From contig JAHHIE010000003.1 of assembly GCA_019358945.1 (NCBI GenBank), positions 124,001 to 188,000 of the forward strand: 64,000 bases of DNA, read 5' to 3'. The number at the start of each line of letters is the position of its first letter. The first letter of the stretch is position 1. Of this stretch, positions 1-27,166 are shown piece after piece. A model generated the notes under the pieces. The model did not search any database. It was not told where the DNA came from and worked only from the letters and a program-made list of their open reading frames with translations. A program made the position numbers and the translations under genes. The stretch comes from Stenomitos rutilans HA7619-LM2. GTDB taxonomy: Bacteria; Cyanobacteriota; Cyanobacteriia; Leptolyngbyales; Leptolyngbyaceae.

Positions 1-2418
1 TGCACGTCTCTCATGCAGATCGTTCGGGTTGCCCTGCCACCGGGACTGTTGGCACGATCGCAACGACGTGTGCGGCTCTTAGACAGAACTGAGCACGACA
101 AAGAGGCCAAGAAGCTAGACGACCTCCGGCTCCTCACTCCCGACTCCCCACTCCCAATTCCTCACTCTTCCGCCGCCCACCAGATCCTCACGCTCCTTCG
201 CGCTAGCAAAACAGGAGCTTATAGCTGGCAATTCCTACAACGCCAGGTTCAAGGAGCGCGTCAAGGTTTACAAGCATTGCTGCAACAGGGCCTGGTTGAA
301 CAATACCTGGAACCACCTACTCCCGTCCGCCCTAAACAAAAGTTAGCTGTCACCTTCGTAGCCTCACCCACGGCATCTGACCTGACCCCTCGACAGCAAG
401 AAATTTTGTCGGTGCTGCGGCGGCAAGGAGGCGAACTCTGGCTCACAGAACTGCTGCAACTGTGCCAGACCAGTTCTACCACCTTAAAAAGCTTGGCGCA
501 GAAAGGGCAGGTTGTGATTCAACCGAGAGAGGTGCTCCGACGCGAAGGTGGCTCAGCCATATCAGCCGATGACGCAAAAACGCTGACGCCAGATCAAACA
601 GCTGCTCTAGAAACGATTCAAGCGCTTTCTGGTTTTGCTCAAGTTTTGCTACATGGCGTCACTGGCTCTGGTAAAACCGAAGTTTACTTGCAGGCGATCG
701 CACCCATTCTTCAGCAAGGGCGATCGGCGTTGGTGCTGGTACCCGAAATTGGCTTGACTCCACAGTTAACCGATCGCTTCCGTGCCCGCTTCGGTAGTCG
801 CGTCTGTGTATATCACAGCGCCTTATCTGATGGCGAGCGGTATGATACTTGGCGGCAAATGCTTAACGGCGACGCTCAGGTGGTGATTGGTACTCGTTCT
901 GCCGTCTTTGCACCACTACCGCGACTGGGACTGATCGTACTGGATGAAGAACACGATGGTAGCTTTAAGCAAGACCAACCAGCCCCCTGCTACCATTCCC
1001 GCACGGTTGCAAGTTGGCGGGCAGAGTTGGAGTGCTGCCCGTTGCTACTGGGGTCGGCAACGCCCTCATTGGAAAGTTGGGTAGCGTGTATGGGCGGGGA
1101 GGTAGAAGGCAGGAAGCAGGAAGCAGAAGGGGGGAGTCGCGAGTCGGGAGTCGCGAGTCGGGAGTCAGCGGTTAACAGTCAAAACTCAAAACTGTCTAGC
1201 GTTCGCGTAGCGTGTTCAACGGACTCAGCGGCGCAAAGCGCTACTCAAAACGCAGAAGGGAGTGGGGAGTCAACAGCCAGAACTCAAAACTCAAAACTCA
1301 AAATTCAAAACTCAAAACTCACTTCCTCCCTCACCCTTACCCTTCCCACCCGCGTCTACGATCGCCCGTTGCCTCCGATCGAGGTGGTTGATATGCGGCA
1401 GGAACTGCATCATGGAAATCATTCCATCTTTAGTCAATCGCTGCGATTGGCCTTGCTGGACTTGAAAGAACGGCAGCAGCAGGGCATTCTGTTTATTCAT
1501 CGTCGGGGCCACAGTACCTTTGTCTCTTGCCGAAGCTGTGGCTATGTGGTCACCTGTCCTAATTGCGATGTGTCGCTGGCGTATCACCATGTCCATAGCG
1601 AGGCAACGCCGCTGTTGCGGTGTCACTACTGCAACCATACCTGCTTGTTGCCCAACGATTGCCCAACCTGCCGTTCTACCTACTTCAAGTATTTTGGCAG
1701 TGGCACTCAGCGGATTGCTCAGGCGATCGCGCAAGAGTTTCCAGACTTGCGGCTGATTCGCTTTGACAGTGACACGACGCGTACAAAGGGTGCCCATCGG
1801 GCACTCCTCACTCAATTTGCGGACGGCGACGCAGATTTGCTAGTGGGCACTCAAATGCTGACAAAAGGCATTGATCTGCCCCAGGTGACGCTTGTGGGCA
1901 TTGTCTCGGCGGACGGCCTGCTGCACATGGCAGACTACCGCGCCAATGAACGGGCCTTTCAAACCCTGACGCAAGTAGCGGGCCGCTGTGGTCGTGGGGA
2001 AGCACCGGGTCGAGTGATTTTGCAAACCTATTCACCAGAGCATCCGGTGATCCAAGCCGTACAGCACCATGCTTATGAACGGTTTGTTACGGACGAGTTA
2101 CAGCATCGATCGCAGCTTCACTATCCCCCTTACAGCCGACTGATCTTACTTCGATTTAGCAGCACCAGCCCGATCGCTGTACAACAAGCCGCCGAACGGG
2201 TAGCGCTTGCCCTGGCTCATCTAGAAGAGCCAGGCGTTGAGCGCTTAGGGCCAGCTCCTGCGACGATTTTGCGCGTTGCCCGTCGTTATCACTGGCAACT
2301 CCTGTTCAAATTACCGCTGACGGGGTCTGTGTCGCTGCCAGACTTCACAACGCTGCGATCGTGGTGCACCAGCAACGTCAGCCTAACAATTGATGTTGAT
2401 CCGCTCACGATGCTTTAG
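1..2418 (+). CDS. priA: Primosomal replication-restart helicase PriA, 5' end cut by window edge
   Basis: PriA is the superfamily 2 DNA helicase that reloads the replisome at stalled forks. The frame is already open at base 1. The first visible residues (VRVALPPG) match a point about 100 residues into the family, so the true start lies outside the window. Seen: Walker A GVTGSGKT near 655-680, the DEEH box near 940-955, the GSATPSLESW motif near 1050-1080, and the zinc-binding cysteines (CxxC...CxxC, CxxC...CxxC) between about 1527 and 1680. Two low-complexity stretches made of heptamer repeats interrupt the protein at 121-171 and 1090-1345; the second adds about 80 residues between the GSATP motif and the conserved VYDRPLPPIEVVDMR segment. 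All motifs on both sides remain in one frame, so the gene looks functional. Confidence 0.97.
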   Translation, partial: CTSLMQIVRVALPPGLLARSQRRVRLLDRTEHDKEAKKLDDLRLLTPDSPLPIPHSSAAHQILTLLRASKTGAYSWQFLQRQVQGARQGLQALLQQGLVEQYLEPPTPVRPKQKLAVTFVASPTASDLTPRQQEILSVLRRQGGELWLTELLQLCQTSSTTLKSLAQKGQVVIQPREVLRREGGSAISADDAKTLTPDQTAALETIQALSGFAQVLLHGVTGSGKTEVYLQAIAPILQQGRSALVLVPEIGLTPQLTDRFRARFGSRVCVYHSALSDGERYDTWRQMLNGDAQVVIGTRSAVFAPLPRLGLIVLDEEHDGSFKQDQPAPCYHSRTVASWRAELECCPLLLGSATPSLESWVACMGGEVEGRKQEAEGGSRESGVASRESAVNSQNSKLSSVRVACSTDSAAQSATQNAEGSGESTARTQNSKLKIQNSKLTSSLTLTLPTRVYDRPLPPIEVVDMRQELHHGNHSIFSQSLRLALLDLKERQQQGILFIHRRGHSTFVSCRSCGYVVTCPNCDVSLAYHHVHSEATPLLRCHYCNHTCLLPNDCPTCRSTYFKYFGSGTQRIAQAIAQEFPDLRLIRFDSDTTRTKGAHRALLTQFADGDADLLVGTQMLTKGIDLPQVTLVGIVSADGLLHMADYRANERAFQTLTQVAGRCGRGEAPGRVILQTYSPEHPVIQAVQHHAYERFVTDELQHRSQLHYPPYSRLILLRFSSTSPIAVQQAAERVALALAHLEEPGVERLGPAPATILRVARRYHWQLLFKLPLTGSVSLPDFTTLRSWCTSNVSLTIDVDPLTML
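121..171. repeat. Heptamer-repeat tract inside priA
   Basis: The stretch is built of variants of CTCCCGA and CTCCCCA (complement GGGAGTC), the repeat type seen between genes elsewhere in this window. It is translated as a Pro/Ser/Leu-rich segment (TPDSPLPIPHSS) in a region that is normally a short linker in PriA. Confidence 0.7.
1090..1345. repeat. Composite heptamer-repeat insert inside priA
   Basis: The tract runs through GGAAGCA units, a 14-bp alternation of GAGTCGC and GAGTCGG (about 1135-1170), a GC-rich core (about 1194-1245) with AGCGTTCGCGTAGCG, and heptamers ACTCAAA (1281-1320). It encodes a low-complexity Ser/Gln/Lys/Glu-rich insert including two QNSKL units. The same composite order, heptamers around a GCGGCGCAA..GCGCTA core, occurs in anmK near 12300-12465. 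Confidence 0.85.
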
Positions 2419-11707: not shown

Positions 11708-13099
<1,392 letters not shown>

Positions 13100-13164
13100 T
13101 GCGTGATGAATCATTGGTTGCTAAACAATCATCGTCTAACAACCCATAACTCACAACTAAAAAC

Positions 13165-18386: not shown

Positions 18387-19109
18387 TCACGCCACTACAT
18401 TTCTTTGCGCCAATTGAGCATTCGTCGTGAGATAACCATCCTCCATCTGCACAATGCGATCAGCAATGTCGAGAATGCGATTGTCGTGCGTCACCAGCAA
18501 AATTGTGCAGCCCTGCTCTCTGGCAAGCCGCTGCATCAATTCCACCACATCGCGCCCCGATTGTTTATCCAGTGCAGCGGTTGGTTCATCTGCCAGCACC
18601 AGCTTGGGATGACTGACCAACGCACGCGCGATCGCCACTCGCTGCTTTTGCCCACCGGAGAGATATTCGGGGTAATAGGTCGATCGTTCCTCTAGCCCCA
18701 CCGCTGCCAGCATTGCCTCAGTTCTCGCATTCGCATTCGCCGTTGATAAGTCGTGCAGTTCCAACGACATCAGCACATTTTGTTTGGCGGTCAGAGACTT
18801 CAGTAAGTTATGCGCCTGAAAGATATAGCCAATGTTGCTCCGTAGCGCCACCATTTGCGCCTTCTTCGCGCCGCAAAGCTCCTGCCCCAACACCTGCAAA
18901 CTGCCGCTTTGAGTCGATCGCAAACTGCCAATCAACGATAGCAACGTCGTCTTACCCGACCCCGACGGCCCCGTCATAATGACAATTTCGCCCGCCTGAA
19001 TCTCTAAATTGATGTCGAACAACACCTGCTTTTGCAGTCGTCCCTGACCGTAATAGTGATTCAGAGCTTGAATTGAAACAACCGACTCAGCCTTATTGAG
19101 AGATTGCAT
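18387..19109 (-). CDS. devA: DevA-type ABC transporter ATPase
   Basis: A 240-residue ATPase with Walker A GPSGSGKTT, signature LSGGQKQRVAIARAL, Walker B LVLADEPTAALD and the switch His in LLVTHDNR. It belongs to the MacB/LolD/DevA group that powers export across the cell envelope with a DevC permease and DevB fusion protein, here the two preceding genes. The ATG at 19109 (MQSLNKAE) has a clear ribosome site GGAGAAG; the open frame extends upstream to 19181 only through repeat sequence. Confidence 0.94.
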   Translation of the reverse strand: MQSLNKAESVVSIQALNHYYGQGRLQKQVLFDINLEIQAGEIVIMTGPSGSGKTTLLSLIGSLRSTQSGSLQVLGQELCGAKKAQMVALRSNIGYIFQAHNLLKSLTAKQNVLMSLELHDLSTANANARTEAMLAAVGLEERSTYYPEYLSGGQKQRVAIARALVSHPKLVLADEPTAALDKQSGRDVVELMQRLAREQGCTILLVTHDNRILDIADRIVQMEDGYLTTNAQLAQRNVVA

Positions 19110-19171
19110 GGAACACTTCTCCTGACTCCTGACTCCTGATACCAATTTGAATTGAAAATGCGACACATCCT

Positions 19172-19200
19172 GTAGGGGCAAGGCATTGCCTTGCCCCTAC
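19172..19200. repeat. GTAGGGGC palindromic repeat between devC and devA
   Basis: A perfect 13-bp stem, GTAGGGGCAAGGC with GCCTTGCCCCTAC, and a 3-base loop. It belongs to a dispersed palindromic repeat type common in cyanobacterial genomes. A related copy lies at 54323-54348, also next to a devA gene. Confidence 0.8.
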
Positions 19201-24298: not shown

Positions 24299-27166
24299 TT
24301 GCTGAACTTGTTGATCAATCGTCGCCAAAAAGCTGCTGTGAAAGGATTATCTGAAAAAGTTGTTGCTGGTGGGTTCACTTTGGCACTGCTGTTACTAGGC
24401 GGTGTTGGCGTTGAGTCCTATCTCAGTGTCAACAAACTGACCGAGAGTCAGCGATTGATTAACCACACGCACCATGTTTTAAACACCCTCAACCAAATTT
24501 CCAACAGCTTAGAAAATGCCGATCGCGGGCGACGGGCCTACTTTGCCGCAAAGGGTGAAGACGAATTGACCACCTGGCGTGCAGGCGTACAAACAACGAA
24601 ACAAGCGATCGCCGATACCAGGCAACTCACAGCCGATAACCCAAAGCAGCAGCAGCGCTTAAACGAAGTCGAGCCACTCATCACCGAACGGTTAGCGTTG
24701 TTTCAGCGCTTCATCACACTGGTGCGCCAAAACAAGCTGGGACTGGTCGAACAGAATGCCATCCTTAAACAGAACCTCTTCTTGCAGCAGCAAATCCAAC
24801 TAAAGCTGCAAGTGATGAAACAAACTGAACAAACGCTGTTTCAACAACGATCAGATGACATCGATCGCGTCGTGGCGCAGGCGATCATTGTGGCTGGCAT
24901 CGGCTACGGCGCAAGCTTTTGCTTGCTAACCAGCATCTTTTTTCTACTTCAAAGAGAAATCCGCTCCCGTAAAGCGGCCGAAGTTGCGCTGCAGAAGCAT
25001 GCCGAAGACGTTTACGACCTGTATAATCATGCACCCTGCGGCTATCACTCACTGGATGACACAGGCACCATTATTCGCATCAACGATACAGAGCTAGCGT
25101 GGCTAGGATATACCCGCGATGAGATCATTGGCAAGAAGGCGTTTAGCGAACTGACGACCGCTCAAAGTGCTTTAGTGTCTCAGGAAAAGTTTCCTCTTTT
25201 CAAAGAGCAGGGCTGGATCAATGATGTCGAATTTGAACTCGTTTGCAAAGATGGCACCATTTTGCCTGTCAGTCTGAGCGCAACAGCCATTAAAGATGCG
25301 GCGGGCAATTTTGTGATGAGCCGCTCGACGCTGTTTAATATCAGCGACCGGAAACGCAGCGAAGCCGAACGCAAGCAAACCCAAATCGCGCTGCAACAGG
25401 CAAACGAACAATTAGAAGCCAGAGTGCAGGCACGCACAGTCGAACTGTCCCAGGTAAATGCATTACTTCGTAGTGAACTGATCGAGCGCAAACAGGCGGA
25501 GCAGGCCTTATTAGAAAGCGAAAAGCAACTTCGCCTGATTACCGATGCCTTACCCGTACTCATCTCCTACGTTGATGCAGAACAGCGCTACCGCTTCAAC
25601 AATCAAGCGTATGAGCAATGGTTTGGCTACGAGTGGGCAATGCTTCAGGGCCAGTACCTCAAGGATGTTTTAGGGGAAACGGCTTACCAGGCAATTAAAC
25701 CCCACGTTGAGGCCGCGCTATCAGGGCAGCAAGTCAACTACGAAAGCTATGTGCCTTACAAAGAGGGTGGCAAGCGTTGGGTGAGTGCTGTTTACATTCC
25801 CGATTTTGGCGAAGGAACTGTAAAGGGTTATTTTGCGCTTATCAGTGACATTACTGATCGCAAACAAGCCGAAGCCGCACTACGTGATAGTGAGCAGCGC
25901 TTGAGCTTGGCCGTCGAAGGTTCAGGCATGGCGACGTGGGATATTGATTTAGCAACAGGGAAGGCGCTCTGGTCAACCCAACACTTCAAGCTGCTGGGGT
26001 ATGAACCCGTGCCCAGTGGCGAGGCCACATTAGATATGTGGCGCAGTTGCGCGCATCCCGATGATCTAGAGTGGGTGTCGCTGGCAGCAGAACGAGCAAT
26101 CCAAGACCGATCGCTCTATCGTTCCGAGCATCGCATTATTCGCGCTGATAACGGGCAGATCGTCTGGCTAGCAGCGTTTGGTCGGGCACTCTACAACGAG
26201 GCAGGACAGGCAGTTCGCTTTCTAGGCATCATTCTTAATATTACCGATCGCAAGCAGACAGAATTAGCTCTCCAGCAGGCTAAGGAAGGGCTAGAACTAC
26301 AGGTGCAGGAGCGCACAACCGCGCTCAGACAAACGAATGACGACTTGCGACGATCAAATCAAGAGCTAGAACAGTTTGCCTATGTTGCTTCTCACGATTT
26401 ACAAGAACCGTTGCGTGCCGTTATGGGCTACACCCAACTGCTAACTCAAGACTACCGCGATCGCTTAGACGAAACAGCCCTAAGCTACGGAACCTACATC
26501 GTTGAAGGCGCAGCGCGGATGCAGCAATTGATTCAGGATCTATTGCACTACTCGCGGGCAGGCACTCGTGACCTTGTTTTTGAACCCACAGATGGCAATG
26601 CAGTCTTAGAGCAAGTGCTCAACACCTTACACATTGCGATCGCTGAAAGCAACGCTACCATCACTTATGATCCTCTACCAACCGTACTTGCCGATAGAAG
26701 CCAATTAGCGCAACTCTTTCAAAACCTCATTGGCAACGCCATTAAATTCTGCCGCGAAGGGTCGCCTCAGGTACACATCAGCGCGAGGAGAGAGGAGAGA
26801 GGAGAGAGGAGAGAGGAGTCTGAGGAAGCAGGGGAAGAAATGCAAGATCTAGAACTCAAAACTCAAAACTCAAAACTCAAAACTCTCCTTGACATCCCAT
26901 CCCTATTACCCGATACTCTCAACCCCGCATGGCTTTTCTCCGTCCGCGATCAGGGCATTGGCATCAAGCCGCGCTATCTAGAGCGTATTTTTGAAATCTT
27001 CAAACGGCTCCACACGCGTACTGAGTTCCCAGGGACAGGGATTGGGTTAGCCATCTGTAAAAAGATTGTCGATCGACATGGTGGGCAGATCTGGGCAATA
27101 TCAGAATTGGGGAACGGCACCACTTTTTACTTTACAATTCCTTCTGCTGACGATTCAGACCCATGA
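24299..27166 (+). CDS. Multi-PAS sensor histidine kinase with repeat insertion
   Basis: A 955-residue membrane kinase: a helix at ~20-45, a CHASE3-like extracytoplasmic domain (residues ~50-190), a second helix (~195-220), three PAS/PAC units (about 240-355, 410-520, 530-660), a HisKA domain with the Cph1-type H-box [14 protein letters not shown], and a HATPase with [15 protein letters not shown] and [10 protein letters not shown]. Between the N and G1 boxes a stretch encoded by GAGGAGA and ACTCAAA heptamers (26784-26890) adds some 40 residues. The start is a TTG at 24299 without a clear ribosome site, so the true N-terminus is uncertain. It overlaps the next receiver gene by ATGA. Confidence 0.94.
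26784..26890. repeat. Heptamer-repeat insert inside the PAS kinase gene
   Basis: Five tandem GAGGAGA units (26784-26818) are followed by a short unique link and ACTCAAA heptamers (about 26853-26884). It is translated as [11 protein letters not shown]...LKTQNSKLK within the ATP-binding domain. Confidence 0.87.

Follow-up and report, generated by a model that had tools for sequence, protein, structure and literature searches.

A heptamer and palindrome insert in the inter-lobe linker of priA in Stenomitos rutilans

How can a conserved replication gene carry, in frame, runs of a seven-base repeat whose unit length is not a multiple of three? This question is raised by priA, the gene for the replication restart helicase PriA, at the beginning of a 64,000 nt stretch of the Stenomitos rutilans HA7619-LM2 genome (contig JAHHIE010000003.1, positions 124,001 to 188,000; in the following called the window). 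The linker between the helicase lobes of this PriA is enlarged by heptamers around a palindromic core. We consider it very likely that short tandemly repeated repetitive (STRR)-type heptamers and a palindrome resembling small dispersed repeats (SDR) accumulated here in a disordered inter-lobe linker, were filtered by selection and form a near-neutral, translated spacer. The insert is one instance of a genome-wide process and not specific to priA.

The in-frame insert in priA

The gene starts ~315 bases before the window (contig position about 123686) and encodes a product of ~910 amino acids (aa), identified as PriA by NF004066 (965 bits; cutoff 813), TIGR00595 (628 bits) and the Pfam domains DEAD, Helicase_C and PriA_C. 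Its frame is already open before the window begins and stays so until the stop at 2418, with 949 open codons, consistent with the continuous frame described in a first-pass annotation made from the sequence alone. The relevant features, in window coordinates, are:

1..2418, + strand: 3′ part of priA (NF004066, TIGR00595, Pfam domains, open frame)
126..167, + strand: smaller second in-frame heptamer patch of CCGACTC/CCCACTC units in the N-terminal linker of PriA (14-base period in Tandem Repeats Finder (TRF), alignment)
1051..1080, + strand: motif III, GSATPSLESW, left edge of the variable linker (alignment with relatives)
1090..1332, + strand: in-frame heptamer/palindrome insert, predicted to be disordered (alignment, AlphaFold)
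1109..1166, + strand: purine-rich heptamer arm, GCAGGAA units at 1109-1131, then GGGAGTC/GCGAGTC units at 1132-1166
1181..1194, + strand: two AAAACTC heptamers on the 5′ side of the palindrome
1195..1246, + strand: 52-base palindromic core, TCTAGCGTTCGCGTAGCG..GCGGCGCAAAGCGCTACTC (genome copies, folds)
1281..1321, + strand: AACTCAA (AAAACTC) array of 5.9 units, encoding the heptapeptide-type repeat TQNSKLK (TRF)
1324..1350, + strand: pyrimidine-rich stretch that closes the insert and passes into the LPTR segment (conserved from 1333)

The insert lies between helicase motif III and the next conserved strand, within a linker of 102 codons that reaches from the W of GSATPSLESW to VVDMR. From GSATP to VDMR we counted 116 aa here versus 37 aa in a homolog with a minimal linker (L041), an excess of ~79 residues or 237 bp that agrees with the roughly 80 low-complexity residues proposed earlier. 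The earlier borders of 1090-1345 hold on the left side but not on the right, where conserved sequence restarts already at 1333 (TLTLPTR here, YLSLPTR in relatives); the conserved segment LPTRVYDRPLPPIEVVDMR lies 3′ of the linker from about 1342. The heptamers sit where they had been placed, with TRF arrays at 1132-1166 (a GGGAGTCGCGAGTC repeat) and 1281-1321, and for three successive AACTCAA units, shuffles of the window give an expectation of 0.00. The GC-rich core of the first-pass annotation is present as well; it is, however, not a random core but a copy of a dispersed palindromic repeat (1195-1246), and GGGAGTC-like units lie between it and the AACTCAA array. One predicted tryptic peptide of the insert is VACSTDSAAQSATQNAEGSGESTAR.

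Removal of the insert from the RNA or the protein, as an intron or intein, has the retained open frame as its one point in favor and is the least probable of the explanations considered, with a negligible likelihood. The sequence consists of simple repeats. An intron or other structured RNA was rejected because no Rfam family matched within positions 1-2600 of the window, and RNA processing, which had been named as a possible refutation, is excluded to the extent that such families would reveal it. An intein was rejected as well, with no such domain found in Pfam and NCBIfam scans.

It is also highly improbable that the repeats disable priA or mark a pseudogene or split gene. Frame-shifting repeats do lie within the gene, and priA of a distant cyanobacterium (G010, locus L039) looks interrupted, with stops in matched stretches and an open frame of 742 codons, due to a sequencing error, a frameshift or a broken gene. 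In S. rutilans, in contrast, priA is present as a single copy with an open frame, and its downstream half is 94% identical to the nearest relative. The ratio of nonsynonymous to synonymous substitution rates (dN/dS) is 0.04-0.08 in the halves flanking the linker versus 0.4-0.6 in the linker itself; the value of ~0.05 on both sides indicates, judged from these alignments, strong purifying selection on the flanks. As to the first-pass description of priA as essential, Escherichia coli cells that lack the gene survive, though in a sick state.

Heptamer arrays in the priA linker of relatives

The linker was taken from ~50 relatives, and arrays were counted over 49 of them with Markov shuffles as the null. 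Perfect heptamer arrays were found in 13 linkers, compared with 0.04 expected, all within one 19-genome clade of the family. The other 36 homologs are free of arrays and their linkers mostly measure 23-59 aa, with minimal forms of 23-30 residues; linkers are also short in PriA homologs from Firmicutes and Chloroflexota. Because the insert is missing from most homologs, an ancestral PriA domain was ruled out, and the alignment supports a lineage-specific expansion. A quick tree with many open forks, from which the linker had been left out, requires at least six changes of state between array and no array. The heptamer units differ by lineage (AATTCAG, AATTCAA, CCATTAC, TGCAACC, CAGCCCT and GGCAGGA), and in the nearest genome (G006) GGCAGGA units occupy the site of the GGGAGTC units seen here. 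The same linker has therefore been occupied repeatedly, between conserved flanks. The nearest named genomes are metagenome-assembled genomes of Lyngbya and Leptolyngbya.

Length and unit of the repeats differ between congeners, as had been anticipated, but no variation at the level of strains was seen, because the nearest genome compared is separated by a synonymous distance (dS) of ~0.7-1.0. For the same reason, the earlier view that an active change had been caught in priA was not borne out.

Alternatively, selection may have kept the linker for a function of its own, such as tethering the helicase lobes flexibly or offering an interaction region between them, with the repeats as mere raw material. 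Its greater length throughout the 19-genome clade and its constant position would fit such a role. We nevertheless regard this as improbable, since neither sequence nor length is conserved even among congeners, dN/dS reaches 0.4-0.6, unrelated genes carry the same cassettes and 23-30 residues suffice in many relatives. The N-terminal linker of PriA, which holds the patch at 126-167, is also variable in relatives, with dN/dS raised to 0.3-1.3 in most comparisons.

Two sister genomes within this comparison differ in their priA linkers. In one (G032, L038), a pair of heptamer arrays placed in inverted order (ATTCGGAATTCGG / CCGAATTCCGAATTC) makes up a palindrome. The other (G023, L031) lacks heptamers; its linker has a palindrome-like, GC-rich stretch (CCAACGCGTAGCGTCTCCGAAGGAG) that may be a dispersed repeat of another type.

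Dispersed heptamers and palindromes in the genome

Parts of the priA insert recur across the genome, with 50 BLAST matches. Perfect heptamer arrays of at least three copies numbered 43 in 864 kb, far above chance as in STRR sequences, versus none in shuffles, and other periods were mostly at zero. STRR heptamers are known from filamentous cyanobacteria (Mazel et al. 1990, as cited in PMC2670836) and G-rich heptamers from Nostoc (PMC4692102). The arrays of S. rutilans resemble STRR sequences in being tandem 7-base units of several types, dispersed in a large filamentous cyanobacterial genome and sometimes able to form hairpins. They differ in that STRR sequences are reported, as a tendency rather than a strict criterion, to be mainly intergenic, whereas about half of the array clusters here lie in frame inside genes. 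According to a home-made hexamer gene model applied to the 864 kb, which underlies all gene-level statistics, ~19 of 39 clusters fall inside called genes, and 13 of the 39 pass a strict two-flank coding test that random positions pass in 38%. Our literature searches found no in-frame heptamer inserts in cyanobacteria.

AACTCAA arrays are patchy in distant cyanobacteria, with 65, 94 and 38 matches in three genomes (G050, G010 and G032, respectively) and none in most; this suggests repeated lineage-specific expansion.

The palindrome unit is an insert of 25-28 bases, TCTAGC....GCGCTACTC, between AAAACTC units. Searched as a pattern with a spacer of four bases, its short form CTCTAGCNNNNCGGCGCAAAGCGCTACTC has 35 copies in this genome, and 54, 7, 6, 3, 12 and 13 copies in six congeners, with no copy in 51 further cyanobacterial genomes. 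The long, 52-base form found in priA consists of the 28-base element and a nested insert of 24 bases and is present in five copies. Among these, the nested hairpin pairs GTCC with GGAC or GTCT with AGAC, essentially one compensatory change, and folding z-scores range from -1 to -1.9. A similar class of repeats, the SDR of Nostoc punctiforme, was reportedly described by Elhai et al. in 2008 as 21-27 bases long and often embedded in heptamers. The palindrome shares with SDR its size of ~25-28 bases, its dispersal and palindromic structure, the embedding in heptamers, nested insertions and perhaps a covarying hairpin; it is not known to match an SDR in sequence, and it differs in its restriction to the genus among the genomes searched and in its coding, in-frame context.

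For 30 palindrome copies with flanks, 20 lie in a frame that stays open for 60 codons or more to either side, and 17 pass the stricter two-flank test compared with 38% of random positions, so that genes show no shortage of palindrome copies. Hosts backed by a family match are rsmG, cobB, ligA (two copies), mutS, where the copy sits just before the Walker A motif, crtD, larB and a gene for a UgpC-like ATPase. Two lysA genes are hosts as well, one of them scoring below the family cutoff, and further hosts encode hydantoinase A, NurA, a glycosyltransferase 9, an MFS permease and two WD40 proteins. Within the window, an AnmK-family gene (anhydro-N-acetylmuramic acid kinase; 11711-13114, - strand) carries in-frame heptamer arrays at 12395-12427 and 12756-12785, and a palindrome copy at about 12356-12384.

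Frame, orientation and cassette layout

Each heptamer shifts the frame, and the palindrome inserts of 28 or 52 bases are each 1 mod 3; the total length must therefore be re-balanced, and the first-pass argument that only some repeat lengths keep the gene intact was sound. The rsmG alleles give an example: the congener G005 has heptamers without the palindrome, and S. rutilans has in addition the palindrome and two heptamers, together 52 + 14 = 66 bases, a multiple of three. This single comparison fits a compensation by heptamer number. Orientation matters as well. Tandem AAAACTC is free of TAA, TAG and TGA on one strand, and its complement TTTTGAG contains TGA, in every frame by three units. 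All 13 AAAACTC blocks in called genes have the stop-free orientation, as expected if stop-bearing orientations are removed.

A plausible course of events is that heptamer units are gained and lost through slippage or recombination and that the palindrome inserts between AAAACTC heptamers. Since 7 is 1 mod 3, changes in heptamer copy number could restore any frame, and because AAAACTC is also stop-free on one strand, selection would retain only stop-free orientations with a total length that is a multiple of three. Translation of the insert would then give PriA a floppy spacer of little consequence.

The orthologs of rsmG, ligA, mutS and cobB in several congeners share one layout, in which purine-rich heptamers are followed by an AAAACTC block, which may or may not hold the palindrome, and then by pyrimidine-rich heptamers; their linkers may also have grown by other units or have no palindrome. 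The polarity of purines on the 5′ and pyrimidines on the 3′ side also exists outside genes, where both signs were as predicted in 13 cases and opposite in 2, and at palindrome loci (17 versus 1; random positions 21% versus 19%). It is therefore a property of the cassette and not of coding constraint alone, and it suggests inverted-repeat-like arms. That many genes and intergenic loci share this layout and polarity would be compatible with the entire cassette moving as one hairpin-shaped mobile unit instead of growing in place. We rate this as rather unlikely, because the units vary from locus to locus and between species, neither exact insertion borders nor target duplications were found and no transposase was linked to the cassettes. 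Somewhat better placed, yet still tentative, is the proposal of a genus-level family of composite hairpin-shaped cassettes that repeatedly invades the same disordered linkers in proteins of replication, repair and metabolism (PriA, LigA, MutS, RsmG and CobB), with heptamer number as the frame adjuster and the otherwise frame-breaking mobile repeat as a routine generator of new linkers.

A disordered spacer is supported by AlphaFold, which modeled the insert as a coil between a helix and a strand, with a predicted local distance difference test (pLDDT) score of ~25 and no secondary structure at residues 362-437 of an 801-residue model; according to this model the insert is probably a floppy protein segment. 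Several points weigh against the favored reading. The model is based on an alignment of only six sequences and has a mean pLDDT of 62.6. The RNA of the insert folds no more stably than shuffles (z -0.1), which gives no support to a functional hairpin. All congeners except one (G004) have arrays at the priA linker, so part of the insert may stem from one old event. Perfect heptamer arrays are also somewhat rarer in genes, with about half of the clusters versus 80% of the sequence being coding, which is expected under selection and is also compatible with rare fixation.

Palindromic elements within protein-coding genes are known as RPE and WPE in Rickettsia and Wolbachia, respectively (Ogata et al. 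2000, 2005; reviewed in PMC2229807), and WPE-like in-frame inserts are on record in Wolbachia priA (PMC4224334). Like these, the cassettes described here are selfish-looking palindromic repeats, in frame in many conserved proteins. RPE are, however, single elements of 105-146 bp, unlike tandem heptamers with a GC-rich palindrome of 28 or 52 bases, and the hosts belong to a different phylum with no known sequence relation. By analogy, the palindrome cassette appears to work like RPE; it is not a single element of ~100-150 bp and we do not file it as a member. The observations would extend the phenomenon of selfish DNA in proteins from Rickettsia and Wolbachia to free-living phototrophs. Heptamers, usually viewed as intergenic filler in cyanobacteria, appear to have contributed coding sequence to conserved proteins again and again, among them the products of the replication and repair genes priA, ligA and mutS, and proteins repeatedly tolerate, as linkers, repeats that would be expected to disrupt their genes. 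Stop-free units, the orientation filter and copy-number compensation make this a natural test of how repeats that are not multiples of three survive in genes, for which the congeners supply matched empty and occupied alleles.

Two further genes of the window contain heptamer arrays. A histidine kinase gene (24299-27163, + strand) has in-frame GAGGAGA and AACTCAA arrays at 26785-26885, in the order purine-rich then AAAACTC, between HisKA and the matched part of HATPase_c. In a gene for an ABC transporter ATPase (18390-19181, - strand), a CTCCTGA array lies near the N-terminus at about 19118-19139.
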